A DNA stretch of 64,000 nucleotides, from contig NZ_JAKGAK010000018.1 of assembly GCF_023061185.1 (NCBI RefSeq), forward strand, positions 1 to 64,000. The letters are read 5' to 3'. Position numbers and translations under genes: made by a program. A model generated the notes under the pieces. That model had not been told where the DNA came from and did not search any database. It was given only the letters and a program-made list of their open reading frames with translations. Positions 4,233-29,863 of the stretch are shown one piece after another. Source of the stretch: Chromohalobacter beijerinckii. Lineage in GTDB: Bacteria > Pseudomonadota > Gammaproteobacteria > Pseudomonadales > Halomonadaceae. Each line of letters opens with the position of its first letter. Positions within the stretch are counted from its first letter, which is position 1.

Positions 4233-5324
4233 TTAACCCAGCAGTGACAGGGCGTTCTGCGGTAGCTGGTTGGCCTGAGACAAGACAGACGTACCGGCCT
4301 GCTGCAGAATCTGGTTACGCGTCATGTTGGAGACTTCATCCGCATAGTCGGCATCTTCAATGCGCGAGCGTGCGGAAGAGAGGTTGGTCTCGGTCGTGCT
4401 CAGGTTGGTGATGGCCGAGTCAAAGCGGTTTTGCATGGCACCCAGCTCGGAGCGCTGGCTATCAACATCACTGATTGCGCTATCGAGTGCACCTAGAGGG
4501 CTGCTTGTCTTAGACCCGTTGCCCTGCAATTCGCTCTCAGCAGTGACTGTCATGCTGGTAATTTCGCCATCATCGTTGGTTTCGGTTGTGACCGAGGCTG
4601 CGTAAGTGGCATCAGTTGAACCAGTCCCTTCGATGAAGAAACTACCATTTTCATCAACGCTGAGGGAGGCGCTGGAATAACCGGAGGGCAGGCCGTCAAA
4701 GGTAGCAGAGCTGATTGCTGTACTACTCCCTGAAGCCAACTCTGCCCCAAGAGCGGTGGTGATGCCGCTTGCAGCGCTACTGAGGCTGCCGCTATAACCA
4801 TTGACATTGAAGTCACCGAGATCCAGTTGCTCAGCGTTGACTTCCTTAAGGTTCATGGTGATAGTCTGGCCATCCTCGGAACCGACCTGAATGTCCATTT
4901 CCTGATTTTTGGCGAGAACATCAACGCCGTTGAAGCTGGTTTCTTCGGAGATACGGTCGATCTCGCCCAGGCGCGCGTCGATCTCGTCCTGGATGGAGTT
5001 CAAATCTTCCTGGCTGTTGGTGCCGTTTTCGGCCTGAACCGTCAGCTCACGCACACGCTGCAGGTTGTCGTTGACCTGGTTCAGTGCGCCTTCGGTGGTC
5101 TGGGCGACAGAGATGCCGTCGTTGGCGTTGCTCTGTGCCTGGCTGAGGCCGTTGATCTGGCTGCTCATGCGGTTGGCGATGGCCTGGCCGGCGGCATCGT
5201 CAGCGGCGCTATTGATCTTCAACCCCGAGGACAGACGCTCCATGGATGTGGAGAGAGCGCTCTGTGACTGGCTCAGGTTCTGCTGGCCGATCATGGCCGT
5301 GATGTTCGTATTGATCACTGACAT
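4233..5324 (-). CDS. fliC: Flagellin
   Basis: The protein has 363 residues. The conserved N-terminal D0/D1 region opens M-S-V-I-N-T-N-I-T-A-M, with S-S-G-L-K-I-N-S-A-A-D-D-A-A-G-Q-A-I-A further on. The C-terminal D1/D0 region (N-R-F-D-S-A-I-T-N-L, then R-S-R-I-E-D-A-D-Y-A) ends in Q-N-A-L-S-L-L-G. The central region is short, Ser/Thr-rich and variable, so it is exposed on the filament and a possible acceptor for modification. The start at 5324 has AGGAAGGAAC upstream and matches the family; a longer frame to 5390 is not supported. It is driven by the sigma-28 promoter at 5415-5441. It is exported through the flagellar gate and polymerises into the filament. Confidence 0.97.
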   Translation of the reverse strand: MSVINTNITAMIGQQNLSQSQSALSTSMERLSSGLKINSAADDAAGQAIANRMSSQINGLSQAQSNANDGISVAQTTEGALNQVNDNLQRVRELTVQAENGTNSQEDLNSIQDEIDARLGEIDRISEETSFNGVDVLAKNQEMDIQVGSEDGQTITMNLKEVNAEQLDLGDFNVNGYSGSLSSAASGITTALGAELASGSSTAISSATFDGLPSGYSSASLSVDENGSFFIEGTGSTDATYAASVTTETNDDGEITSMTVTAESELQGNGSKTSSPLGALDSAISDVDSQRSELGAMQNRFDSAITNLSTTETNLSSARSRIEDADYADEVSNMTRNQILQQAGTSVLSQANQLPQNALSLLG

Positions 5325-5414: not shown

Positions 5415-5441
5415 TTATCGGCGCAGGGGGAATTTGCTTTA
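5415..5441 (-). promoter_or_regulatory. Sigma-28 (FliA) promoter of fliC
   Basis: The minus strand reads TAAAGCAA, 11 bases, GCCGATAA. The -10 box is perfect, the -35 box is near-consensus and the spacing is exact. It ends ~90 bp before the flagellin ATG. Confidence 0.93.
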
Positions 5442-5533: not shown

Positions 5534-5767
5534 ATGCCCTCGCTGGATATCATGCTCGACCTTTCACTTGAGACGTGTCGCTACCATTACGAAGGCGCCA
5601 TGCAAACCGTGATCGCCACCAGCGTGGATGGGCGTCGGGTGAGCTTTCCCGCCACGGCACTGCGCCGCATCGTTACGCCGGATGGCGCGCACGGCGTGTT
5701 TCGATTGACGTTCAGTGAGGAGGGCAAGTTCATGTCGATGGTGGCGGTAAGGCGTTGGGAGGCGTGA
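5534..5767 (+). CDS. DUF2835 family protein
   Basis: A small protein of 77 residues. It begins M-P-S-L-D-I-M-L-D-L-S and contains the family core G-R-R-V-S-F-P-A-T-A-L-R-R-I-V-T and G-V-F-R-L-T-F. This matches my recollection of the DUF2835 family, which is common in gammaproteobacteria and has no known function. It is the only complete plus-strand gene between fliC and the IS element, and it is convergent with the Rpn-family gene. An in-frame ATG at 5552 would shorten it by six residues. Confidence 0.8.
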   Translation: MPSLDIMLDLSLETCRYHYEGAMQTVIATSVDGRRVSFPATALRRIVTPDGAHGVFRLTFSEEGKFMSMVAVRRWEA

Positions 5768-5816
5768 TCTTCTAACTACCGCGGCTATACCTCAACACGG
5801 CTATGCCTCAAAACAC

Positions 5817-5842
5817 GGAAAGCAACCCGAAGGCTGCTTTCC
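5817..5842. terminator. Bidirectional terminator-like hairpin
   Basis: GGAAAGCAACC, loop CGAA, GGCTGCTTTCC gives an 11-bp stem with one wobble and a stable tetraloop. It lies between two convergent genes. The T-runs are weak on both sides, slightly better on the minus strand (GTGTTTTG). Confidence 0.6.
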
Positions 5843-5894
5843 GCTTCAGAACGCCGTGTCACGATGTTTGGAGAGCGACGCGCCGCTGGTCGGG

Positions 5895-6839
5895 TCAATG
5901 CTTCAGTTCGGCTCGCAGTTCACGAACCTGGGCAATATCCAGATCCGCGGCCTTGGCAATGGCATCATCGGTCAGTTGTGTATCCCGAATCAGATTGCGA
6001 GCCGTCTCCAGTCGGCCTTCCTGGCGGCCTTCCTGACGGCCTTGCTGAAGACCTTGCTGTTTCCACTGTTCGGGCCATTTCTTCGCACGTTCGGCTAGCA
6101 TGTTGTGCACCTCGCTTAAGTCATCGAGCGCCTGCCACTCGATCTCTTCGTCTTCAGGTACCCAGCTGGGTAGCAGCACGCGCCGGATCCAGATGACAAA
6201 GTGCCGGCGTAGCTGGGTCTGTTCCGGCGCCTGGAGCCATTGTACCAGCAATCCGATCAGGTCGATGGCATCCTGCTGGCTCCTGTGATGTTCCAGCCGA
6301 AAGATGGCCGAGACGACATTCCGGGTTTCTTCCGACCACTGCTCATTGGCAACGATTGCCCCTTCGTCCAGCAACAGATAAGGGAGAGTCGGCCGGTAAT
6401 GTTCCAGGCCGCCGGGTACGGGTTGGACCAGTTCGGCGACGTCGAGCGCCGCGTTCCAGCGCCTTTCACCATTATAGAGCACGATGGGCAGCACCGGCGG
6501 TAGTTTGCCTTGCCGGGTCAGCTTGTTCTGCTTGACCAGGTCCTGATAGAGCAACCCGACATAGGTCATTATGCGTAGCGACATGAACGGATCGACGGTG
6601 CTCTGGAACTCGATCAGCAGATAGACGTAGAGCCACTCGTCGCCAAAGCGAACGCGCCAGATCACATCGTCCTCGCGGTCACGGAGGTCGTCGGTGACGA
6701 AGGTGCTGCTGACTTTCTCCAGCGAGTCGAAATCCAGGCGTTCGACCCACTCCTCTTTGACGAAGCCCGTCAGAAGGTCGTGGACGGTTCTCGGCTCGCT
6801 GAACAGGAGCTTGTAGCTTCTATCGTGTTGGTTGTTCAT
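5895..6839 (-). CDS. Rpn-family recombination-promoting nuclease / putative transposase
   Basis: The protein has 314 residues. It begins H-D-R-S-Y-K-L-L-F-S-E-P, and the PD-(D/E)XK core is recognisable as D-V-I-W-R-V-R followed by Y-V-Y-L-L-I-E-F-Q-S. This family is annotated as PD-(D/E)XK transposase/Rpn; E. coli RpnA-type members are DNA endonucleases that raise RecA-independent recombination. The C-terminus carries the usual Q-Q-G-L-Q-Q-G-R-Q-E-G-R low-complexity tract. The ATG at 6839 has GAGG six bases upstream; a longer frame reaches 6875. It lies alone on its strand in a region rich in mobile DNA. Its own mobility is doubtful, as most such genes are solitary. Confidence 0.85.
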   Translation of the reverse strand: MNNQHDRSYKLLFSEPRTVHDLLTGFVKEEWVERLDFDSLEKVSSTFVTDDLRDREDDVIWRVRFGDEWLYVYLLIEFQSTVDPFMSLRIMTYVGLLYQDLVKQNKLTRQGKLPPVLPIVLYNGERRWNAALDVAELVQPVPGGLEHYRPTLPYLLLDEGAIVANEQWSEETRNVVSAIFRLEHHRSQQDAIDLIGLLVQWLQAPEQTQLRRHFVIWIRRVLLPSWVPEDEEIEWQALDDLSEVHNMLAERAKKWPEQWKQQGLQQGRQEGRQEGRLETARNLIRDTQLTDDAIAKAADLDIAQVRELRAELKH

Positions 6840-6930
6840 GGCAATCCTCTTTCTCCTCTGGGCGTAGCGTACCATGGCAGGGCATGTGCCTTGCCCAAGG
6901 TCACCGCCGACGTTTTTCTCTCCCTAAAGG

Positions 6931-6957
6931 TAAAGTTTTATTAGCCTTTGCCGACAT
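6931..6957 (+). promoter_or_regulatory. Orphan sigma-28 (FliA) promoter facing the IS element
   Basis: TAAAGTTT (perfect -35) is followed by 11 bases and GCCGACAT (six of eight bases of the -10 consensus). It points rightward. The DNA just after it holds GAGG (6993-6996) and an ATG at 7001 encoding M-A-L-R-R before the IS left end. The next real genes are beyond the IS, so it was probably the promoter of the envelope operon now starting near 8611. Confidence 0.75.
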
Positions 6958-7046
6958 TTATAGGGGCGGTGCGTTACGCCGCCGCTCGATGCGAGGCCGC
7001 ATGGCTTTGCGTCGCGATGAAATAAATGACCAGAATGCGCGGCATG

Positions 7047-7066
7047 CCCCGTACTTTTAGTGCGGG
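7047..7066. repeat. IS left-end hairpin
   Basis: CCCCGTAC TTTTA GTGCGGGG has an 8-bp stem with one mismatch. It matches the right-end hairpin in form and is a probable TnpA recognition structure. Confidence 0.7.
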
Positions 7067-7078
7067 GAAGGATAGCGC

Positions 7079-7095
7079 GGGCCGCAAAGCGGCCC
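7079..7095. terminator. Hairpin directly after tnpA
   Basis: GGGCCGC AAA GCGGCCC is a perfect 7-bp stem touching the tnpA stop codon. There is no T-run, so it may be a weak terminator or an insulating structure within the IS left end. Confidence 0.5.
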
Positions 7096-7512
7096 TCAAT
7101 GCGGGCAGTTCTGCTGCTCGATATATTGGCGGACCACCGAGATCGGGGCACCGCCAACACTCCCGGCGAAGTAGCTCGGGCTCCACAGGGCATTCTTCTG
7201 GTACGCCGGTTTCACTAGCTCAGGGTGCATCAGCTTGAGTCTTCGGCTAGATACCCCTTTCAAGCTGTTTACTAAGCGAGACAACGCCACCTTGGGTGGG
7301 TAATTCACCAGCAGGTGGACGTGATCATCTTCACCGTTGAACTCCACCAGTTCCGCCTCGAAGTCGGTACATACGCGGCGGAACAGCCCCTCAAGGGATT
7401 CAAGATGCTCGGCACCAAAGAGCCTGCCCCTATACTTGGTAACAAAGACCAAGTGTGCGTGGAGCATGAAAACGCAGTGTCTGCCGGTTCTGTAGGGTTG
7501 TTGGTTATCCAT
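7096..7512 (-). CDS. tnpA: IS200/IS605 transposase TnpA (Y1 HUH)
   Basis: The protein has 138 residues, a normal length for the family. It contains H-L-V-F-V-T-K-Y-R, the HUH motif D-D-H-V-H-L-L (His64, His66) and the catalytic tyrosine in V-V-R-Q-Y-I-E-Q-Q (Tyr130). It cuts and joins single-stranded DNA at the IS ends, so the element looks able to move. The start at 7512 gives the standard N-terminus; an upstream frame to 7578 overlaps tnpB and is unlikely. It is divergent from tnpB. Confidence 0.93.
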   Translation of the reverse strand: MDNQQPYRTGRHCVFMLHAHLVFVTKYRGRLFGAEHLESLEGLFRRVCTDFEAELVEFNGEDDHVHLLVNYPPKVALSRLVNSLKGVSSRRLKLMHPELVKPAYQKNALWSPSYFAGSVGGAPISVVRQYIEQQNCPH

Positions 7513-7533
7513 AGACCAAGTATATTCTAGGTC

Positions 7534-8595
7534 ATGAAACAGACCAAGACCCTCAAGGTTCGAGTGAAGGATAAGCACGCCGCCGAGCTTAACCGCATGG
7601 CGCGTAGCGTGAACTTCGTCTGGAACTACGTGAACGAACTAAGCTCGCGGTCGATCCGAGAGCGAAGGGTCTTCTTGTCTGCGTACGACATCCAAAAGTA
7701 CACCAACGGAGTCGCCAAGGAGCTTGGCCTTCACAGCCATACGGTGCAGGAGGTTGGCAGGGAGTACGCGACCCGCCGCAAGCAGTTTCGCAAGTCCCGC
7801 TTGGCGTGGAGGAAGTCCCGTGGCGTGCGCCGTTCGCTCGGTTGGGTACCCTTCAAGTCAGGTGCAGCCAAGTGGAAAAGCGGTCAGGTGTTCCACAACG
7901 GCAGCTACTTCAAGGTTTGGGACAGCTTCGGCCTGTCGAAGTATGCGTTCCGTTCCGGCAGCTTCAGCGAAGACGCGCGCGGTCGCTGGTATTTCAATGT
8001 AGTGGTCGAGGTCGATGTACAGCCGTCCGTCGGCCAAGGGGCTGTCGGAATCGACTTGGGCCTGAAGGACGTGGCGACCTGTAGTGATGGCAAGCGGCTA
8101 AAGAGTGGCCGCTTCTACCATGATCTTGAAGACAAGCTGACCACGGCTCAACGGGCACGCAACAAGCGGCGTGTGAAGGCGATCCACGCCAAGATTAAGA
8201 ATCGGCGCAAGGATGCGCTACATAAGTTCTCCCGCCGGCTGGTCGACCAGCACGGCGAAATAGTGGTGGGCGATGTCTCGCCCACCAAGCTCGCGAAGAC
8301 CCGCATGGCCAAGTCGGTATTGGATGCCGGATGGGGCCAACTGAAGACGATGTTGGAATACAAGTGCGATCACGCAAGCATCGTCTTTCGAGAGGTTCGC
8401 GAGGCATACACCACCCGTACCTGTTCATCGTGCGGCTCGCTCAGTGGGCCACAGGGTGTAAATGGGCTGCGAGTAAGAGACTGGATGTGCGTGGAGTGTG
8501 GTGCGCTACACGACCGGGACGTTAACGCGGCCCGGAATATCCTCAGTCTCGGGGCAGGACGTTGCCCTCAAGAAGTTGGAATCCCCGTCCTTTAG
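7534..8595 (+). CDS. tnpB: TnpB-family RNA-guided nuclease (IS605 OrfB)
   Basis: The protein has 353 residues. RuvC-I is V-G-I-D-L-G-L-K-D (Asp174). The zinc ribbon is C297-x2-C300 ... C319-x2-C322. RuvC-III is H-D-R-D-V-N-A-A-R-N (Asp327/329). The RuvC-II strand reads I-V-V-G-D-V-S, with Gly246 where the usual catalytic Glu stands; E275 (L-E-Y-K) is the nearest conserved acid. In this family the 3' end of the gene and the IS right end form the guide RNA scaffold, and the guide is the flank just after the right end. Here that flank (from 8613) is the truncated lipoprotein gene. Coding is complete, ending just inside the right-end hairpin. Confidence 0.92.
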   Translation: MKQTKTLKVRVKDKHAAELNRMARSVNFVWNYVNELSSRSIRERRVFLSAYDIQKYTNGVAKELGLHSHTVQEVGREYATRRKQFRKSRLAWRKSRGVRRSLGWVPFKSGAAKWKSGQVFHNGSYFKVWDSFGLSKYAFRSGSFSEDARGRWYFNVVVEVDVQPSVGQGAVGIDLGLKDVATCSDGKRLKSGRFYHDLEDKLTTAQRARNKRRVKAIHAKIKNRRKDALHKFSRRLVDQHGEIVVGDVSPTKLAKTRMAKSVLDAGWGQLKTMLEYKCDHASIVFREVREAYTTRTCSSCGSLSGPQGVNGLRVRDWMCVECGALHDRDVNAARNILSLGAGRCPQEVGIPVL

Positions 8596-8602
8596 GGCGG
8601 GG
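8583..8602. repeat. IS right-end hairpin
   Basis: CCCCGTCC TTTA GGGCGGGG overlaps the tnpB stop. It is the right-end counterpart of 7047-7066 and probably the end of the guide RNA scaffold. Confidence 0.75.
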
Positions 8603-8643
8603 AGGACGTCAAGGGGTGCGCCTCGTACAAGCATCGCAATCAG

Positions 8644-10326
8644 ATGGAGGCGTTCAATACGTCTTATGTGGCGGGGGATTATCAGGCAGCGATCGAGGCG
8701 ATGGCGCCGTCTTCCTTGATGCCCGGCGAGCCCGACAAGGAAGAGCAGGTACTGGAGCTACTGCACCAGGCGGAGGCCTATCGCCTGGCGGGGGAGCCGC
8801 AAATGGCCATCGATCTCTACGATCAGGCCGAAGCGGGCATGAAGCTCAACGACACCGACAACTTGGCCGAGAAGGGGGCGGAGAACGCCTTGGCGGTGCT
8901 GGTCAATGATGCCCAGCGAGATTACCGGCCGATGCTTGCCGAGGCGGTGCTGGTGAATACCTATAAAGGCCTGGCGTTCTTGCAGCTAGGTAACGATGCC
9001 AGTGCGCGGGTTGAGTTCAACCGTGCCGATGATCGCACGCGGCGGGCGGTGGCTGCTTTTGCTGAGGAGATCGCCGAGCAAAAGGCGGCGCTCAAGGAGC
9101 AAGCGGAAGCCGATGCTAACCGCGAGCAGCAAGCCATTCAGCAAAGCCTCGATAGCGACGCGCTGCATGAGAGCGTCGCCCAGCAATACGGGGCCCCCTC
9201 GCAGTGGGGTGTTTACCCTGAATTCATCGTGCCCTCGGCCACCTATCTGCATGGCTTGTACTTCCTCGCCAGTGGTGAAAGCGGTGACATCGACCGCGCC
9301 GCGACCTCGCTTTCGCGCGTGGCGGCGATGTCCCCTGAGAGTGAGCCGCTCGCCGCGGATGCCGAACTAGCGCAGGCGATTGGCAGTGGCGAGACAAGCC
9401 GTGAGCGCATGGGGCAGCGGGTCTGGGTGGTCTATGAAAATGGCCTGGGCCCGGTCGCCGAGGAAAAGCGCCTCGATGTGCCGTTGCTGCTTTTTCATGG
9501 CAATACCCAAGCACCCGCCTATACAGGCATCGCCTTGCCCGACTATGCCGATCGCCACGCGGTGGGCGATGCGCTGTCGTTGGTCGATGCCCAGGGGCAG
9601 CGTTACGCCCCCGAGACGTTCGCCTCGATGGGCAAGGTCGTACAGACCGAAATGCAGTCACGCTTTCCCGCCATTCTGGGGCGCTCGGTAGCCTCGGCGG
9701 TGGTGAAGGCGCTGATGCAGAACGAGGCGACCGAACGCCTGGGCGTGGCTGGCCAGCTTGGCTCGGCGGTGCTCACGGCGATGACCACGCAAGCCGACCT
9801 GCGTAGCTGGCAGGCGACACCGGATCATTGGGAAGTGGCGCGTTTCGCGCGGCCTGCCTCGGGCGAGTTGACGCTCGAGACACCGTCGGGGCCGCTGGGT
9901 GATCTGAACCTGCCGGGCGGGCGTTATGTGCTGGTGGTGAGCCGCATCGTCAATGACACCATGCAGCGTCTGGATACCGACCAACTGGTGAAGAAGATTC
10001 GCGTGCAGTTGCTGCGCTCCGGCCGTGTGGTGACGACCACGGCGGTGGGCATCGACGGGCCCGAGGATGAGATGAACCAGCTCACGCGCACATTGCGGGA
10101 TTCCGAGGAGTTCGACCAGCGCGGAGTAGAAAAGAAGGGCACCTTGCAAGCGCCGGACCTGAGTCTTTCCGGCAAGATTCTCCAGCGCAATCGCCGCGTG
10201 GCGGATGAGCAGCAGGTGGAGTATTACATGCAGCTGACATTGACCGACCTGAGTAGCGGCTTAGCGCTGTGGGAAAACGAAACGCAAGTCATCAAGCGGG
10301 GCTCCGATGCCTCGGTGGCATGGTAA
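8644..10326 (+). CDS. COG3014-like + LpoB-like envelope lipoprotein, signal peptide lost to IS insertion
   Basis: The protein has 560 residues from the first ATG. Residues ~1-400 resemble the COG3014 lipoprotein family, with TPR-like helices and L-V-N-T-Y-K-G-L-A-F-L-Q-L-G-N-D-A-S-A-R-V-E-F. Residues ~420-560 match the penicillin-binding-protein activator LpoB domain: P-G-G-R-Y-V-L-V-V-S-R-I-V-N-D-T-M, D-T-D-Q-L-V-K-K-I-R and L-S-L-S-G-K-I-L-Q-R. Upstream of the ATG the same frame encodes G-C-A-S-Y-K-H-R-N-Q back to the IS end, where G-C-A is the remnant of a lipobox. The signal peptide is absent and no Shine-Dalgarno precedes 8644, so expression and localisation are probably broken. It is the first gene of a three-gene operon. 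Confidence 0.75.
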   Translation: MEAFNTSYVAGDYQAAIEAMAPSSLMPGEPDKEEQVLELLHQAEAYRLAGEPQMAIDLYDQAEAGMKLNDTDNLAEKGAENALAVLVNDAQRDYRPMLAEAVLVNTYKGLAFLQLGNDASARVEFNRADDRTRRAVAAFAEEIAEQKAALKEQAEADANREQQAIQQSLDSDALHESVAQQYGAPSQWGVYPEFIVPSATYLHGLYFLASGESGDIDRAATSLSRVAAMSPESEPLAADAELAQAIGSGETSRERMGQRVWVVYENGLGPVAEEKRLDVPLLLFHGNTQAPAYTGIALPDYADRHAVGDALSLVDAQGQRYAPETFASMGKVVQTEMQSRFPAILGRSVASAVVKALMQNEATERLGVAGQLGSAVLTAMTTQADLRSWQATPDHWEVARFARPASGELTLETPSGPLGDLNLPGGRYVLVVSRIVNDTMQRLDTDQLVKKIRVQLLRSGRVVTTTAVGIDGPEDEMNQLTRTLRDSEEFDQRGVEKKGTLQAPDLSLSGKILQRNRRVADEQQVEYYMQLTLTDLSSGLALWENETQVIKRGSDASVAW

Positions 10327-10339
10327 AAGGAGCCTTCTC

Positions 10340-11827
10340 ATGAGCATGTTGTCGTCTACGTCACCGTATAAAGGGTCGTACAAGCCGCTTGTCGCCGCCA
10401 TTGGTTTGGCCTGCCTGGCGCTGGCGCCGATGAGCGCGTTCGCGCAGTCGGGCGATGCCGGTTCTGATGCGGCGTCCAACACGACACCCTCGACCTCAGA
10501 TTCTTCCGCCCCAGATTCCTCCGCCCCCGCTTCACAGGAAGAGTCGCCATCGCCGTTCATGGCGGTGAAAGAGGTGTCGAACAGCGGCGAGTTGATCCAG
10601 CGTTTTCTCGAGCAGCGGGGCTGGCAGCAAGGGCCGCATGCAGGCAATCCGAGTGGTGGCAATCTAGTCGTGGCGACGGAGAGCATCGCGGCGGATCCGT
10701 CGACCATCGAATTTAGCCAGGCGCGCTTGATCGCCACCGAAGAAGCCTTCCTCAAGGCGATGGGGGAGCTGGTCTCGCAGGATGCCGTGAACGTCGGCAA
10801 GACCATGGCGGACCGCTTCATGAAAGATGGCCTGCCCGAGGAAGTCAAAGATACCACCGGCCTGGATGCCTTGGGCGAGGCCGTGGCGAGTCGCCTGGCC
10901 GAGAGCTCGGTACAGGCACTCAACAAGGTCATCGAGGAGCTGGGCGGCGATGCCAGTCAGCTACCTCAGCTCAATATCGCCGAGCGCAAGCAACTGCTGT
11001 ATGACGAGTTCGTGACCAGCACGACCTGGCAGGCAATGGGTCAGCTCTCGGGCGTCGGCGTGTTCGGGTTGGTGGAAGAAACCGGGGGCGATGGCCCGGT
11101 GAACAACGGCTCGGTGAGTATCGTCGTGGTGCAGTCGCCCCGCTTCAGCGAGTTGGGTCGCCAGCTGCGTAACGGCGGCGGCGCGCCGGCCCAGGCGTTG
11201 CCGGTGGCTTCGGTGATGGAGGATTTGCGCCCCATGCTGGATGCCGGCACGCCGATGCTGGGGCTGTTCGGCGTTCAGCCGGTGGTCAAGGAGGGGCGTT
11301 TTGGGTTGATGTCGTTTGGCATGAGTGCGCCAGCGCTGGTGCGCGGCACCATGCAAGAGTACGAGATCAACGCCGAGATGGAGGCAGCACGCCAGAGCGC
11401 CAAGCTGATGGCGGATGGCTGGCTGGCGCAGTTCGCGACGATGACAGTGCAGGGCCAGAAGGAAAGCAGCAAGCGCAAGCTACGCGAGCAGGTGCGTGAA
11501 ACGCGTGGCGATGGCACGTCGCGCATTCTGACCCAAGAAGGCATCGGCCGCATGGTGCGCAATGTCATGCGTTCGGAATCGCAGGCCAACTTGAAAGGCG
11601 TGCAGACCATCGGCCAATGGAGCACTCCCGATCCGCAGACCGGGCATCCGTATCTGGGTTACGTCAAATACTGGTCGCCGGGCACGGCGGCGAGTGCCGA
11701 GGCGCGCATGGAAGCACGTAACAACCCGGGTAGCGATGGCGCGGCGTCCACGTCTGGCGCGTCTTCGGAAGATAGTACGACGACGCCCGAGAGTTCGCGT
11801 TCCACTGGCTCGTTCGGGGAATGGTAA
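10340..11827 (+). CDS. Exported protein of unknown function (middle gene of envelope operon)
   Basis: The protein has 495 residues. It has a Sec signal peptide with hydrophobic L-V-A-A-I-G-L-A-C-L-A-L-A and probable cleavage after A-F-A, so it is periplasmic. A low-complexity Ser/Asp/Pro linker follows to about residue 80. The globular body (E-L-I-Q-R-F-L-E-Q-R-G-W, I-A-T-E-E-A-F-L-K-A-M, then a long region through Y-L-G-Y-V-K-Y-W-S) has no motif I can assign safely. It may belong to the family called DUF6844, but I recall this only weakly. It ends in another Ser/Thr-rich tail. The ATG at 10340 has AAGGAG seven bases upstream. Its stop overlaps the next start, so it works with its two neighbours in the envelope. 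Confidence 0.65.
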   Translation: MSMLSSTSPYKGSYKPLVAAIGLACLALAPMSAFAQSGDAGSDAASNTTPSTSDSSAPDSSAPASQEESPSPFMAVKEVSNSGELIQRFLEQRGWQQGPHAGNPSGGNLVVATESIAADPSTIEFSQARLIATEEAFLKAMGELVSQDAVNVGKTMADRFMKDGLPEEVKDTTGLDALGEAVASRLAESSVQALNKVIEELGGDASQLPQLNIAERKQLLYDEFVTSTTWQAMGQLSGVGVFGLVEETGGDGPVNNGSVSIVVVQSPRFSELGRQLRNGGGAPAQALPVASVMEDLRPMLDAGTPMLGLFGVQPVVKEGRFGLMSFGMSAPALVRGTMQEYEINAEMEAARQSAKLMADGWLAQFATMTVQGQKESSKRKLREQVRETRGDGTSRILTQEGIGRMVRNVMRSESQANLKGVQTIGQWSTPDPQTGHPYLGYVKYWSPGTAASAEARMEARNNPGSDGAASTSGASSEDSTTTPESSRSTGSFGEW

Positions 11828-13128
11828 TGGCGCACGCACAGAGAAGCGCATGGCGCGTGTGGCTGCTGATCGTCGCTGGCGCGCTGGCGTGGGCGATGCT
11901 TGCCGCGCCGGCGTGGGGCGGCGTCGAGATACGCCAGGTTGAGGCGAAATCAACGGGGGCCACGCGTGACGAGGCGATTTTCAATGCCTTGGGCGAGGCC
12001 GTGCGTCAGGTGCACGGCGCTAAAGTCGACGCCAGCCGCGAGATTCGTCGCTCCATGCAGCGTACCTCGGTGCGTGACGAGCAGGGGCATTCGACTACCG
12101 TCGAGCAGTCGTCGCGCTACGACAGCGGCACCCGCGTGGAAAGCCAGGGGCTGATCAGCGGCTATGAGGTGCTGGGCGTGTCGCCGGCCATGGGTGGCGG
12201 GCAAATGGCGCATCTTCGTGTGAAGGTGCCGGTCTACCGTGCGCCCGGCTCGGCGGCGCAGTCCAATCGCCAGCGCTTGGCCGTTTACCCGGTGGAGATC
12301 GACGCGGACCGGTTGCGTCTGACCGGTGAGCGCCTGGCGCCGGGAGATGCGTCGCGGCGACTGACGCAGTCTCTGGTGCGGGCGTTCGTCGGCTCGCGGC
12401 GCTTCTCCGTGCTGGATCGTGACATGCGCGACGCCATCGCGGCCGAGCAGCGTTTCGTGGCCTCGGGGCAAGTCCCGCTTGAGCAAAAAGCCATGTTGGG
12501 ACGCAACCTGGGCGCGGACTATTTGGTCACGAGCCGCCTGACGGGCATGGACATGGCGCTGAAAACGGTGACCAACCCGGTTTCCGGCGAACCTTCTCAA
12601 GAAGCCACCGGCGCTGCGACGCTGGAAGCGCGGGTCGTCGTGCCGGCGACAGGCCAAGTCATGTGGAGCGAGACGCTGAATGTCTCGCTGGATGATCTGG
12701 GCATCGCGTCGAGTTCGGGGGACTTCACGCAGCAGGTGTTCGATGCCTTGGGGAGCGAGCTGACCTTCCGCGCGTTGAACGTGATCTACCCGCTGCGTGT
12801 CGTGGAAAGCAGAGGCGATGAGATCGTGCTCAACCAGGGCGGCGCCATCGTCCAGGCCGGGCAGCGCTTCGGCGTGTTCGACATCGGCAAGCGTTACACC
12901 GATCCTTATCACGGCGAAAGTCTGGGCCCGCGCGAGAACTGGACGGCGGACGTCGAGATCACCCGGGTCACGGATAAGATCGCATATGCACGCATCATCA
13001 ACGGCCAAGTCGAAGGTGATGGCCAAGTGCTACGCCGCACCGCCACTGGAAAGGAAGCAAGAGAGTCGGAGCGCGCGGCCCAGCGCGGTACGCGTGAACG
13101 AGTGTGCCTGCCGATGGACCCGTGCTGA
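11827..13128 (+). CDS. CsgG/FlgT-like secreted protein
   Basis: The protein has 433 residues, starting at an ATG that overlaps the previous stop (TAATG). A signal peptide (W-L-L-I-V-A-G-A-L-A-W-A-M-L-A, cleavage near P-A-W-G) has no lipobox. Three parts follow. The first is an N-terminal domain with A-T-R-D-E-A-I-F-N-A-L-G-E-A-V-R-Q-V. The second is a CsgG-like middle domain with S-R-R-F-S-V-L-D-R-D and L-G-A-D-Y-L-V-T-S-R-L. The third is a C-terminal domain with I-V-L-N-Q-G-G-A-I-V-Q-A-G-Q-R-F-G-V-F. This order resembles Vibrio FlgT, which forms the H-ring of the flagellar basal body, but identity is low and CsgG/HfaB-like alternatives remain open. It closes the operon and a terminator follows. 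Confidence 0.65.
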   Translation: MAHAQRSAWRVWLLIVAGALAWAMLAAPAWGGVEIRQVEAKSTGATRDEAIFNALGEAVRQVHGAKVDASREIRRSMQRTSVRDEQGHSTTVEQSSRYDSGTRVESQGLISGYEVLGVSPAMGGGQMAHLRVKVPVYRAPGSAAQSNRQRLAVYPVEIDADRLRLTGERLAPGDASRRLTQSLVRAFVGSRRFSVLDRDMRDAIAAEQRFVASGQVPLEQKAMLGRNLGADYLVTSRLTGMDMALKTVTNPVSGEPSQEATGAATLEARVVVPATGQVMWSETLNVSLDDLGIASSSGDFTQQVFDALGSELTFRALNVIYPLRVVESRGDEIVLNQGGAIVQAGQRFGVFDIGKRYTDPYHGESLGPRENWTADVEITRVTDKIAYARIINGQVEGDGQVLRRTATGKEARESERAAQRGTRERVCLPMDPC

Positions 13129-13160
13129 GCGGGAACGAACGATCATCAGCAGTACTTAAA

Positions 13161-13184
13161 CCGAGGCATTGCCTCGGTTTTTTT
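13161..13184 (+). terminator. Rho-independent terminator of the envelope operon
   Basis: CCGAGGCATTGCCTCGG is followed by seven T residues, ~30 bp after the last stop. Confidence 0.93.
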
Positions 13185-13316
13185 ATGCCAGGCATAAGGA
13201 TTGTCGTAATGGAACATGTAGGCCGCCTTCGAAACATATGCCAACGTGCACTTGTTAAGAATTGCTGATATTGATATCTAATACTAACGGCTGTAACTGA
13301 ATATGAGGCTTATGCC

Positions 13317-13604
13317 ATGTCGATGAAGAACCCTCCGCACCCGGGTAGGATGCTGCGGCGTCGTATCGTTCCGGCCCTGAATATGAGTGTGACCGAGCTA
13401 GCGGAAAAGTTGGGCATGTCTCGCAACTCGGTGTCTCGAGTATTGAACGAGCACGCTGCCATTTCTCCAGATTTCGCCGTTCGCCTTGAGTCTGGCGGGA
13501 TCGGTGAGGCGGCGCATTGGCTGCGCATGCAGGCCGCCCATGATCTCGCCGAGGCGAAAGCGAAAGAAAAAAACCACATCGAAAGATTCGCTCAGACCGC
13601 GTAA
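13317..13604 (+). CDS. HigA-family antitoxin-like HTH regulator (no HigB partner)
   Basis: The protein has 95 residues. N-terminal N-P-P-H-P-G-R-M-L is the HigA hallmark. It is followed by a Cro/C1-type helix-turn-helix: S-V-T-E-L-A-E-K-L-G-M-S-R-N-S-V-S-R-V-L-N. The C-terminal helix is R-L-E-S-G-G-I-G-E-A-A-H-W-L-R-M-Q. HigA proteins neutralise the HigB ribosome-dependent RNase and repress their own operon. HigB is normally the gene just upstream, but the 190 bp there hold no such frame. The start at 13317 has an in-frame ATG at 13323 as an alternative. It is probably a solitary repressor or the remnant of a broken toxin-antitoxin pair. Confidence 0.8.
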   Translation: MSMKNPPHPGRMLRRRIVPALNMSVTELAEKLGMSRNSVSRVLNEHAAISPDFAVRLESGGIGEAAHWLRMQAAHDLAEAKAKEKNHIERFAQTA

Positions 13605-13793
13605 GTCGCGGGGTAGGCGTGAAGCTAGACATTTAAGCGGTCTTGCCAACGCCTAGGCGAGTGTCGTCTGTCGGCTCTTAGCAGAGCGTCGTTTCAGGTG
13701 ATGAGGTGCCGTCAGCCATGAATGGTGTCATTGGCATCCAGCTAATCCTTGATGCATCCTTGACCGAACGGACAGCATGAGGTGGAAGACGCG

Positions 13794-14801
13794 ATGACGA
13801 CGAGCGAGACGGCGATGACGACGTGGCTGCGCGCACTGCCCAAGGCGGAGCTGCATCTGCATATCGAAGGCACGCTGGAGCCGGAGCTGATGTTCGCTCT
13901 GGCGGAGCGCAATGGCGTAACGCTGCCGTACGACTCTGTGGAGGCGGTGCGCGCGGCGTACGATTTTGAGGATCTGCCGTCGTTCCTCGGTTTGTATTAT
14001 CAGGGCATGGGCGTGTTGCATACGCAGGATGATTTCTATGATCTGGCGATGGCGTATTTTGCCCGCGCGCGGGAAGACGGTGTGGCGCATGTCGAGCTGT
14101 CGTTCGACCCGCAGGCGCATTTGGTGCGCGGCGTGCCGCTCGAGGCGCCGTTTGAGGGGTTGCTGGCGGCATGCCGCGAGGCCGAGTCGCGTTACGGGAT
14201 TTCCTCGGCACTGATCATGAGCTTTCTGCGTGACCGTGACCCCGCCGAAGCGCTGGAGGTGTTCGAGCAGGCGACGCCTTGGCACTCGGCGATCGACGCG
14301 GTGGGGCTCGATAGCGCCGAGCGCGATCATCCGCCGGGGCGTTTCGCCGAGGTGTTCGCGCGGGCGCGGGCGCTGGGCATTCCCGGCGTGGCGCATGCTG
14401 GGGAAGAGGGGCCTGCCGCGTATATCCGCGAAGCCTGGGAGGCGCTCGAGGTATGCCGAATCGATCACGGTGTACGCTGCCTGGAAGACCCCGAACTGGT
14501 CGCACGATTGAGCGACGCCCGCATACCGTTGACCGTGTGTCCGCTTTCCAATGTCAAGCTCAAGGTAACCGACTCGCTAGCCGAACATCCGCTGCCCGCT
14601 CTGCGTGAGGCGGGGCTCAACGTTACCCTCAATTCCGACGATCCCGCCTATTTCGGCGGCGGGATGCTGGATAACTACGTCGCCTGTCACGAGGCCTTCG
14701 GCTGGACGCGGGACGACTTCATCGATATGACTCGCAACGCTTTGCAAGCCGCTTTCATGGCTGAAGAAAGGCGCGAGGCGCTGCTGGAACGGCTGGCTTG
14801 A
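13794..14801 (+). CDS. Adenosine/adenine deaminase family protein
   Basis: The protein has 335 residues. Metal-binding H-L-H-I-E-G-T-L is near residue 25. H-A-G-E-E-G, the catalytic R-I-D-H-G-V-R-C and S-D-D-P-A-Y follow in the family order. The wording of the N-terminus (P-K-A-E-L-H-L-H-I-E-G-T-L-E-P-E-L-M-F) is closer to the adenine-specific deaminases of pseudomonads than to classical Add, so adenine to hypoxanthine in purine salvage is my first guess. The ATG at 13794 has GGAAG five bases upstream; a GTG at 13782 is possible. The gene is monocistronic in appearance. Confidence 0.87.
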   Translation: MTTSETAMTTWLRALPKAELHLHIEGTLEPELMFALAERNGVTLPYDSVEAVRAAYDFEDLPSFLGLYYQGMGVLHTQDDFYDLAMAYFARAREDGVAHVELSFDPQAHLVRGVPLEAPFEGLLAACREAESRYGISSALIMSFLRDRDPAEALEVFEQATPWHSAIDAVGLDSAERDHPPGRFAEVFARARALGIPGVAHAGEEGPAAYIREAWEALEVCRIDHGVRCLEDPELVARLSDARIPLTVCPLSNVKLKVTDSLAEHPLPALREAGLNVTLNSDDPAYFGGGMLDNYVACHEAFGWTRDDFIDMTRNALQAAFMAEERREALLERLA

Positions 14802-14880
14802 TTTCTAATAACAAACGTCTTTAACGAAAAGGTTCTTCGCAGACCAGCGTGAAACGGTAAGGCCCCACCATGCTCACCGC

Positions 14881-15466: not shown

Positions 15467-15919
15467 TTATACCCGCGAGCTGATGCGGTTGAGGCCTTTG
15501 TGCCGTGAGCGTCCATCGGCTTCGTACATCGTGCTGCCAGCGGCTTCTTTCAGGAAGTTGAGCATGCGCTGGTTCTGTTCCATGCGGTTCATGGCCAGCA
15601 AGCCGTTGATGCGGTTGAGCTGACGCGCCTCTTCACCGGTACTGCGCAGCTGATGCCAGCTGTCTTGTCGCGCTACCTCGGTGGCGGCGCGTTCGGCGCT
15701 TTGGCGGCTTTCGCCGTGGCCTTGTTCATGCAACAGGCGGCGGCGTTCGGCGTCGAGCGTTTCCAACTCGGCGGCGACTTGGGACTTCGCCTCGGCGAGG
15801 CGTTCCAGCTCGGGACCATCGACCTCGCCCTGGGACAAGGATTGCCGCTCTTCGCGCAGCAAGGTGACGAAGCGCTGCATGGCGTCGAGTTGGCGGTCCA
15901 GGGTTTCGGCGAGCGACAT
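15467..15919 (-). CDS. flgN: Flagellar chaperone FlgN
   Basis: The protein has 150 residues and is almost entirely helical (L-L-R-E-E-R-Q-S-L, L-A-E-A-K-S-Q-V-A-A-E-L-E-T-L). The C-terminal N-R-I-N-G-L-L-A-M-N-R-M-E-Q-N-Q-R-M-L-N-F-L is typical of FlgN. FlgN holds the hook-filament junction proteins FlgK and FlgL before export; both are encoded ~9 kb away. It lies 65 bp after flgM on the same strand and so is probably expressed from the flgM sigma-28 promoter. Confidence 0.9.
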   Translation of the reverse strand: MSLAETLDRQLDAMQRFVTLLREERQSLSQGEVDGPELERLAEAKSQVAAELETLDAERRRLLHEQGHGESRQSAERAATEVARQDSWHQLRSTGEEARQLNRINGLLAMNRMEQNQRMLNFLKEAAGSTMYEADGRSRHKGLNRISSRV

Positions 15920-15984
15920 AATGGCGTCCCATCCATCCTTTGGTTTTGTGCCGGGTATCAGGCCGGCGTGTAGTCGAACCGAGA

Positions 15985-16275
15985 TTAGCGGGCCGACGTG
16001 TCGCCGAGCATATCGCGGACACTATCGATCAAGCCATCGGCGATCTTGCCGGTGTCGAGTTCCATCTGACCATCGCTGATGGCCTGGCGGATCTCGTCGA
16101 CACGAGCAGTGTCGATGTCCTGGCTGGTGTCGGCTTCATTGCTCTGACTCAGCGTGGTGATGCTGGCCGGCGAATCGGCTTGCGCGGTGTCATCGCCACG
16201 GCGTGTACGCTGGGCGGCGTCACTCTGCTCACTCTGGGCGGCCTGAGTCGGCGGATGTAAGTTGGAAATTTTCAC
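15985..16275 (-). CDS. flgM: Anti-sigma-28 factor FlgM
   Basis: The protein has 96 residues beginning (M)K-I-S-N-L at a GTG, the usual FlgM N-terminus. The C-terminal sigma-binding part reads V-D-E-I-R-Q-A-I-S-D-G-Q-M-E-L-D-T-G-K-I-A-D-G-L-I-D (written here in pieces of the family pattern). The frame continues upstream to 16320, but that start falls inside the sigma-28 -10 box, so it cannot be used from this promoter. FlgM holds FliA inactive until the hook is complete and FlgM itself is exported. Confidence 0.92.
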   Translation of the reverse strand: MKISNLHPPTQAAQSEQSDAAQRTRRGDDTAQADSPASITTLSQSNEADTSQDIDTARVDEIRQAISDGQMELDTGKIADGLIDSVRDMLGDTSAR

Positions 16276-16309
16276 AATTGGGCTCTCTTGCAGCGCGGGC
16301 TTGTACCCT

Positions 16310-16336
16310 TTATCGGCCACGTTAATAAAAACTGTA
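16310..16336 (-). promoter_or_regulatory. Sigma-28 promoter of flgM
   Basis: The minus strand reads TACAGTTT, 11 bases, GCCGATAA: perfect -10 box, seven of eight in the -35 box. It lies ~35 bp before the GTG start of flgM, giving the expected autoregulatory loop. Confidence 0.92.
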
Positions 16337-29086: not shown

Positions 29087-29863
29087 CTACATATAGAAGC
29101 TTTGGGCCAGCGAGCCGATGAGCAAATTCCAGCCGTCGACGAGCACGAATAGCATGAGCTTGAAGGGCAGAGAAATCGTCGCCGGTGGCACCATCATCAT
29201 CCCCAGTGCCATCAACACACTGGCGACCACCAGGTCGATGATCAGAAACGGAATGAAGATACTGAAACCGATCTGGAACGCGGTCTTGAGTTCGCTGGTC
29301 ATGAAGGCAGGCACCAGCAGGCGCATCGGGACATCTTCGGGGCCCTGCATTTCATCGGCGTCGGCCATGCGCGCGAAGAGCGCCAGGTCGGTTTCGCGCG
29401 TCTGGGCGAACATGAACTCGCGAAACGGCTGACTGCCTTGCTTCATGGCTTGTTCGAGGCTGATCTGGTCCTCGGAGAAAGGCACCCAAGCCTGTTCATG
29501 CACGCGGTCGATGACCGGCGACATGATGAAAAACGTCATGAACAACGCCAGGCCCAGCAGTACCTGGTTGGGCGGCGTCGATTGGGTGCCGATGGCGGTA
29601 CGCAGCAGGCTCAACACGATGATGATGCGAGTAAAGCAGGTCATGCCCAGGAGCAGCGCGGGCAAGAAGGCCAGCGAGCTGAGCAGGAGCAACGTCTGCA
29701 GGCTCAACGACCAGCGTTGACCGCCGTCGCCGGTGGGTTCGGTGACAATGCCCGGAATTTCCTGCCCCCAGCCCAGCGCGGGCCAGACAAGTAACAGCAA
29801 TGCCAGGCCACGACGCAGCATGACGGCGACGTCTATCCGATTGAGCATGGCAGCGACGTTCAT
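29087..29863 (-). CDS. fliP: Flagellar export gate protein FliP
   Basis: The protein has 258 residues. It has a cleavable signal peptide ([14 protein letters not shown]), then [20 protein letters not shown] and [21 protein letters not shown]. FliP forms the core pentamer of the export gate. The start overlaps the fliO stop by 4 bp (ATGA). Confidence 0.96.

Follow-up and report, generated by a model that had tools for sequence, protein, structure and literature searches.

How did a promoter of the flagellar type come to lie apart from an envelope operon, with an insertion sequence (IS) between the two? This question is raised by a 64,000-nucleotide stretch of the Chromohalobacter beijerinckii genome (contig NZ_JAKGAK010000018.1, positions 1 to 64,000, hereafter the window). 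The locus contains, in this order, fliC, an Rpn-family gene, a sigma-28 box, an IS200/IS605 element, a frame in which gene 1 of the operon is fused to the LpoB-like gene 2, genes 3 and 4, an adenosine-deaminase-like gene, flgN and flgM. Comparison with relatives indicated that, very probably, the IS and a loss of 96 bp parted a sigma-28 promoter from the operon, whose first two genes were fused by a second deletion, of 410 bp.

Insertion of the IS and loss of 96 bp

Three operon-bearing congeners served for comparison, C. canadensis 85B, C. sarecensis DSM 15547 and Chromohalobacter sp. 296-RDG, all of the same genus as the window genome. In 3/3 of them the box, a ribosome site (AAGGGA), the ATG, a lipoprotein signal peptide and the operon are contiguous and free of the IS, which bears out the proposal of an initial annotation of the window that the IS had split a lipoprotein gene. 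The signal peptide of gene 1 in these congeners, for example MKTITRGVVLALLAASVTGC, ends in a lipobox, and G19 and C20 of this lipobox were invariant across the 24 relatives picked for the gene 1 alignment. In the window, the old operon leader (6958-7030, forward strand) aligns to C. canadensis through a TGAC at 7027-7030, which is the first target site of the IS, and the alignment resumes at GGGGTGC from 8613. The 96 bases found between these points in C. canadensis (locus positions 7666-7761) are gone, and with them the ribosome site, the start codon and the signal peptide up to the G-C of the lipobox. The small deletion predicted by the initial annotation is indeed real.

The right flank (GGGGTGC, 8613-8619, forward strand) retains the Cys codon at 8617-8619, and G-C alone is left of the lipobox after the IS; a signal peptide ending in a lipobox was not found for gene 1 of the window. 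As had been annotated, the first frame after the IS opens in G-C-A-S at 8614, but it proved to consist of two fused genes and not one. This frame is open from 8596, inside the IS, with no in-frame start codon between the stop before 8596 and the first start, ATG 8644, and a lipoprotein product is therefore not expected. The ATG at 7001 (M-A-L-R-R), formerly taken as the start, had to be abandoned, its frame stopping after 11 codons in C. canadensis. The M-A-L-R-R frame was also rejected as a gene (7001-7060, forward strand): it is spurious and runs into the IS, and its exact string was not found in the two other congener loci.

The element itself (7031-8612) is 1582 bp long and runs from CAGAATGCG to GTCAA, its ends being deduced by comparing related copies inserted elsewhere. 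Its tnpA gene (7096-7578, reverse strand; open reading frame from GTG 7578, inner ATG 7512) encodes a Y1 (HUH) transposase, 7099-7533 matching PF01797 (1.1e-39) and NF033573 (1.7e-41; 141.4 bits for a cut-off of 55). The tnpB gene (7534-8595, forward strand) belongs to the RNA-guided nuclease family (NF040570, 2.9e-73, 247.4 bits for a cut-off of 100; PF07282, 6.9e-23). At the left end (7043-7067, forward strand), the guide CATG (7043-7046) precedes the palindrome CCCCGTAC...GTGCGGGG (7047-7067); at the right end (8579-8612, forward strand), the sequence provides the guide GAAT, the palindrome CCCCGTCC...GGGCGGGG and the cleavage site TCAA. TnpA, TnpB, the subterminal palindromes, a guide complementary to the 5' target and the absence of target duplication, as judged from the flanks and the empty sites, all correspond to an IS200/IS605 element, as initially annotated. 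A search for Rfam families between 5300 and 14000 at E 1 gave three matches, all far under their gathering scores, and those to HgcC and SmY over the right end of the IS were dismissed as chance.

IS608 and ISDra2, of the same family, likewise combine tnpA and tnpB, subterminal palindromes and insertion 3' of a short sequence that a guide selects. According to an excerpt of PMC5934647, IS608 has the same right guide GAAT and the same right cleavage site TCAA. By contrast, the left guide and target here are CATG and TGAC instead of AAAG and TTAC, and the present insertion is accompanied by a deletion of host DNA from target to target.

The relation between guide and target was evaluated on 54 sources, namely the window and 53 stretches chosen among IS matches, the left guide being defined as the four bases 5' of the left palindrome. 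One left end was scored in 34 of these sources (12/20 in the second batch of stretches); the remainder lacked a match to the palindrome string, were truncated or were duplicates, and one further left-end match had no recognisable tip. The tip pattern T.A[TC] before C fixes target bases 1 and 3, so that the test applied to base 2 and, for the choice of T or C, to base 4. Guide base 1 complemented target base 2 in 33/34 left ends (shuffled targets: mean 13.9, maximum 24 in 10,000), and guide base 4 complemented target base 4 in 30/34. The pairs were AAAA/TTAT (14), CATG/TGAC (7), GATA/TCAT (4), AATG/TTAC (2) and CAAA/TGAT (2), with five single pairings. In line with this, the excerpt of PMC5934647 describes pairing of guide base A+16 with T-3 in IS608, equivalent to that of guide base 1 with target base 2 here. 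On the basis of the left guide CATG and of this covariation, TGAC is the preferred target of the element.

From these observations, an IS with the left guide CATG, choosing TGAC, would have entered the start and signal-peptide region of gene 1, and the 96 bp between two TGAC sites would have been lost, most likely by TnpA acting on both, at insertion or later. Indeed, TGAC occurs only twice in the C. canadensis locus between 7560 and 7770, at 7662 and 7758, and these are both ends of the deletion; the matching stretch contains three TGAC in C. sarecensis and two in sp. 296-RDG. Several points weaken this view. The 34 left ends are kin, and IS copies that share descent are not 34 independent cases. 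Given the specificity of the IS, a TGAC on the left was to be expected, and the right one alone (a chance of about 1 in 256) carries information. Moreover, the two TGAC form a direct repeat of 4 bp, at which slippage may take place without TnpA. A simple insertion, with the 96 bp lost separately by such slippage, is accordingly conceivable but rather doubtful: the nearby 410-bp deletion, with its one-base overlap, shows that deletions of another kind occur, but the element itself targets TGAC, and one end of the loss lies exactly at the tip of the IS. Finally, it is extremely improbable that an assembly error joined unrelated pieces here. The genome is a draft of 60 contigs, but with the IS found in a single copy there is little reason to expect a misjoin at a repeat; its junctions agree with the target biology, and the order fliC, operon, adenosine deaminase, flgN matches that of the three congeners.

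The sigma-28 box and its distribution

Boxes were scored as matches of 16 against the FliA consensus, the window being scanned on both strands with spacings of 10 to 12. The operon box (6931-6957, forward strand; TAAAGTTT-N11-GCCGACAT) scored 14/16 with a spacing of 11, and the equivalent boxes of the intact operon scored 14, 14 and 13 in the three congeners. The promoter described as near-perfect in the initial annotation is thus a real box, the second best of the 64-kb window, and an imperfect one. It ranks behind the flgM box (15/16, at 16336, reverse strand) and ahead of the fliC box (5441, reverse strand) and a site at 29104 (reverse strand), joint third at 13/16. Simulated first-order Markov sequences (300 of 700 bases, spacing 11 only) never reached 13/16 and reached 12/16 in 1% of cases. 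Ten sites of the whole genome had at most two mismatches to the sigma-28 motif. Besides flgM and the operon, these sites precede genes that, judged by eye, are FliD-like and chemoreceptor-like; downstream of the others, no motility gene was recognised by eye. The exact E. coli consensus, searched as a variable-gap pattern, had no match in the genome. The FliA gene itself was over the cut-off in 15/15 genomes examined.

As a separate observation, another lipoprotein-like gene of the same genome has a sigma-28-like box with three mismatches about 70 bases upstream (C23:154466-154492), and a divergent box with two mismatches lies about 150 bases from it.

The operon and its box were then followed among relatives. 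Gene 1 was found in 4/10 genomes of the genus, including the window genome, and in 14 of 201 sampled genomes of the family, nine of these being strong matches. A box of at least 13/16 lies upstream in 7/9 strong family operons (that of the window included), with 13-14/16 and a spacing of 11, and fliC lies within about 7 kb in six of these seven, the Aidingimonas operon having none in the 16.5 kb fetched. A contig search based on two peptide patterns covered 80 of 85 relatives and gave 79 loci, the upstream scan covering the 500 bases before the start of the match and not before a curated start codon. A box of at least 13/16 was present in 7/8 Halomonadaceae-named loci of this search; seven genomes are common to the two sets, and Vreelandella rituensis, new in the second, lacks fliC in the 17.5 kb of its locus. 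A 13/16 box was found neither in the single Litorivivens locus nor in the 41 Helicobacter-type loci, of which six had a 12/16 box that was not counted as support. All four genes occur together in Halomonadaceae, in Ectothiorhodospira and in part of the Marinobacter loci.

A number of these data speak against membership of the operon in the flagellar regulon. The box has only 14/16 matches, and at three mismatches the motif is near background across the genome (21 sites, versus 12 for a reversed-pattern control), so that the box by itself is not proof. Two strong family operons, in Halomonas salicampi and genome G019, lie away from fliC and do not reach 12/16, and such a box is also missing throughout a set of 29 loci, most of them labelled Marinobacter (27, with one Ectothiorhodospira and one metagenome-assembled genome labelled Halomonas). 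Two boxed operons (L097 and L099) show no flagellin in the stretch fetched. In the genus, six of the ten genomes are devoid of the operon and all six possess flagellin, meaning that the operon is not needed for flagella there. A chance or unused match, with the operon outside the flagellar regulon, would account for the boxless loci and the near-background motif, but is unlikely given the conserved score and spacing in 7/9 family operons, which none of the 300 random sequences attained, the proximity of flagellin to six of the seven boxed operons and the FlgT-like nature of gene 4 (see below). Furthermore, in the six operon-less congeners, the stretch around adenosine deaminase contained fliC, while operon genes were not found there, and no 12/16 box faced adenosine deaminase in any of the six.

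As far as seen, flagellar control would thus be a trait of Halomonadaceae, the same genes existing elsewhere without a box; the occurrence of the box in this family but not in the mostly Marinobacter set implies that control would belong to the family and not to the genes as such. The initial annotation had placed the operon proteins in the flagellar regulon, which would hold for this lineage but cannot be extended to the protein families at large. It had also named relatives with a boxless operon, or with the operon elsewhere, as evidence to the contrary, and such relatives were encountered outside the genus only, namely Halomonas salicampi, G019 and the 29 loci above.

A second deletion and the proteins of the operon

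Gene 1, of about 500 codons, is distinct in the three congeners from the LpoB-like gene, which has about 200 codons and a lipobox of its own. In the window, a truncated gene 1 is fused in frame to gene 2 (8596-10326, forward strand; junction at 9916), the frame being open over 560 codons from ATG 8644. The fusion corresponds to 410 bp absent from the window (C. canadensis locus 9066-9475), with a one-base overlap; a join at a GCCGG microhomology was ruled out, the window having one G extra relative to it. This second deletion, independent of the first, removes the lipobox of LpoB, so that with the 96-bp loss the operon has been stripped of its two lipoprotein signals. By prediction, neither lipoprotein would now be lipidated or exported, and their function as lipoproteins is probably lost.

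Polarisation by C. sarecensis gave, for the window lineage and that of C. canadensis respectively, similar changes in gene 1 (6 nonsynonymous/21 synonymous and 6/19), with 0/2 and 0/2 in the LpoB part, 8/25 and 4/33 in gene 3, and 5/17 and 5/13 in gene 4. On this basis, it looks as if the damage is recent or the genes have continued in use. No terminator-like site was found in 6850-8760 (shuffles averaged 2.1), and sigma-28 transcripts might therefore still reach the open genes 3 and 4 through tnpB; the one sigma-70-like site inside the IS (7409-7436, forward strand) is at chance level (0.6 expected). A fused frame that is open and conserved leaves room for residual function and counts against a simple loss. 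A still working operon, with transcripts crossing the IS and the gene 1-LpoB fusion as a new functional protein, would agree with the 560-codon frame, the lack of a terminator and the fact that relaxed selection was not seen. We nevertheless consider it very unlikely, both lipoprotein signals being lost and no in-frame start preceding ATG 8644.

Taken together, the ancestor would have possessed a four-gene envelope operon, probably transcribed as a single unit in a FliA-dependent manner from a sigma-28 promoter, between fliC and flgMN. It would have encoded two lipoproteins, one a TPR protein of COG3014 type and the other LpoB-like, and two exported proteins, a DUF6844 protein and one resembling FlgT. 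Today the IS stands between promoter and gene body, which are separated by 1.6 kb.

Gene 1 is presumably a COG3014-type TPR lipoprotein in relatives, the COG number following the initial annotation. Its model (predicted local distance difference test, pLDDT, 78.4) shows a TPR protein with a strand-rich C-terminal part. A sequence-profile search of the PDB gave no match to it at E 1, Foldseek returned mostly TPR proteins, none at E 0.001, and a literature search on COG3014, with or without flagella, found nothing. Gene 2 shares with LpoB, the activator of PBP1b, a PF13036 match (2.8e-33). It differs in being fused and deprived of its signal, and the fused protein scored 108.1 with TIGR02722, just under the cut-off of 110.55. 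Gene 3 (10340-11827, forward strand) is open, 97% identical to C. canadensis and predicted to encode an exported DUF6844 protein (PF20891, 2e-7), with a nearly full-length profile match to PDB 4qvr (FTT_1539c; E 2.5e-4). As FTT_1539c comes from Francisella, a bacterium not known to have flagella, DUF6844 would not be flagellar as such.

Gene 4 (11821-13128, forward strand), open and 97% identical to C. canadensis, encodes a CsgG-domain protein (PF03783, 5.6e-13) that is probably exported, its start resembling a signal peptide. FlgT (3w1e) came first among the PDB matches of its model (E 4.5e-18, 414 columns), followed by an LPHT ring chain (8z5n, 4.2e-17) and then the first CsgG (1.6e-6). For residues 150-407, comparison with FlgT by VIA gave a Z of 13.7 over 226 residues, with a root-mean-square deviation of 13.5. 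The TM-scores with FlgT are low (0.26/0.31) and the model has a mean pLDDT of 64.4 and a predicted TM-score of 0.52, which lessens the force of this resemblance; the low scores fit with an unsure placement of domains in the model. At the sequence level, FlgT_M was matched in 13/20 gene 4 homologues (best 3.8e-6) and is not listed for the window protein, FlgT Pfam models were over the cut-off in 0/15 genomes, and the PDB sequence-profile search returned 3jc8 alone, at 0.15. As judged from the model, and with low TM-scores, gene 4 would thus be FlgT-like by fold. Pfam models of the FlgO/FlgP type are not listed for the window genes, and in the homologue scans, which covered genes 1 and 4, LPP20 alone appeared, weakly, in 3/20 gene 4 homologues (best 0.011); this does not prove that such proteins are missing.

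Neighbouring genes and possible meaning for the flagellum

The operon is flanked by flagellar genes. On one side lies the flagellin gene fliC (4233-5324, reverse strand; PF00669, PF00700), with its sigma-28 box at 5415-5441. On the other, beyond a gene that we take to be adenosine-deaminase-like, are flgN and flgM (15467-16336, reverse strand; FlgN, PF05130), with a box at 16310-16336; the name flgM is assumed from position. An Rpn-family (Transposase_31) gene (5895-6875, reverse strand, in the interval 5765-6890) separates fliC from the operon promoter and is absent in sp. 296-RDG. At this position, C. canadensis and C. sarecensis carry a gene that is presumably HipA-like, and sp. 296-RDG neither this nor an Rpn-family gene; the interval from fliC to the promoter looks like a probable insertion hot spot. 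Between gene 4 and adenosine deaminase stands a solitary helix-turn-helix protein (13317-13604), which we assume to be HigA-like; it was found with 98-100% identity in 4/9 congener stretches and not found in the other five. Within 8596-14830, identity to C. canadensis is 94-95% for the operon and 87% for the adenosine deaminase region, the latter being closer to genome G005 (92%). This contrast makes a mosaic ancestry around the operon possible.

The Vibrio H ring comprises two outer-membrane lipoproteins and periplasmic FlgT, as stated in an excerpt of PMC7990780. Like the Vibrio flgT, flgO and flgP genes, the present operon encodes envelope proteins beside flagellar genes, and its gene 4 resembles FlgT in fold. 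It differs in combining its FlgT-like protein with a DUF6844 protein and with two lipoproteins, one LpoB-like and one a TPR protein of COG3014 type, in its sigma-28 box and in being missing from most congeners. The presence of two lipoproteins and a FlgT-like protein downstream of such a box suggests that these envelope proteins serve the flagellum and, by analogy with the H ring, we put forward the hypothesis that the operon provides a ring-like accessory of the motor.

The insertion as such is ordinary. Its interest lies, on the one hand, in the IS copies, which constitute a natural record of the guide-target rule known for IS608, with a host deletion spanning exactly one target site to the next. 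On the other hand, a little-studied envelope operon, which includes a FlgT-like protein and carries the flagellar sigma-28 box in one family, offers a testable lead. More tentatively, and with appreciable doubt, Halomonadaceae may possess a sigma-28-controlled, late-assembled outer-membrane structure associated with the flagellum and of new composition (COG3014-type TPR lipoprotein, LpoB-like lipoprotein, DUF6844 and FlgT-like proteins), a motor accessory gained and lost at the flagellin locus. In the strain of the window, its promoter would have been captured by the IS, and tnpB would in consequence be transcribed, along with its guide RNA, together with flagellin.

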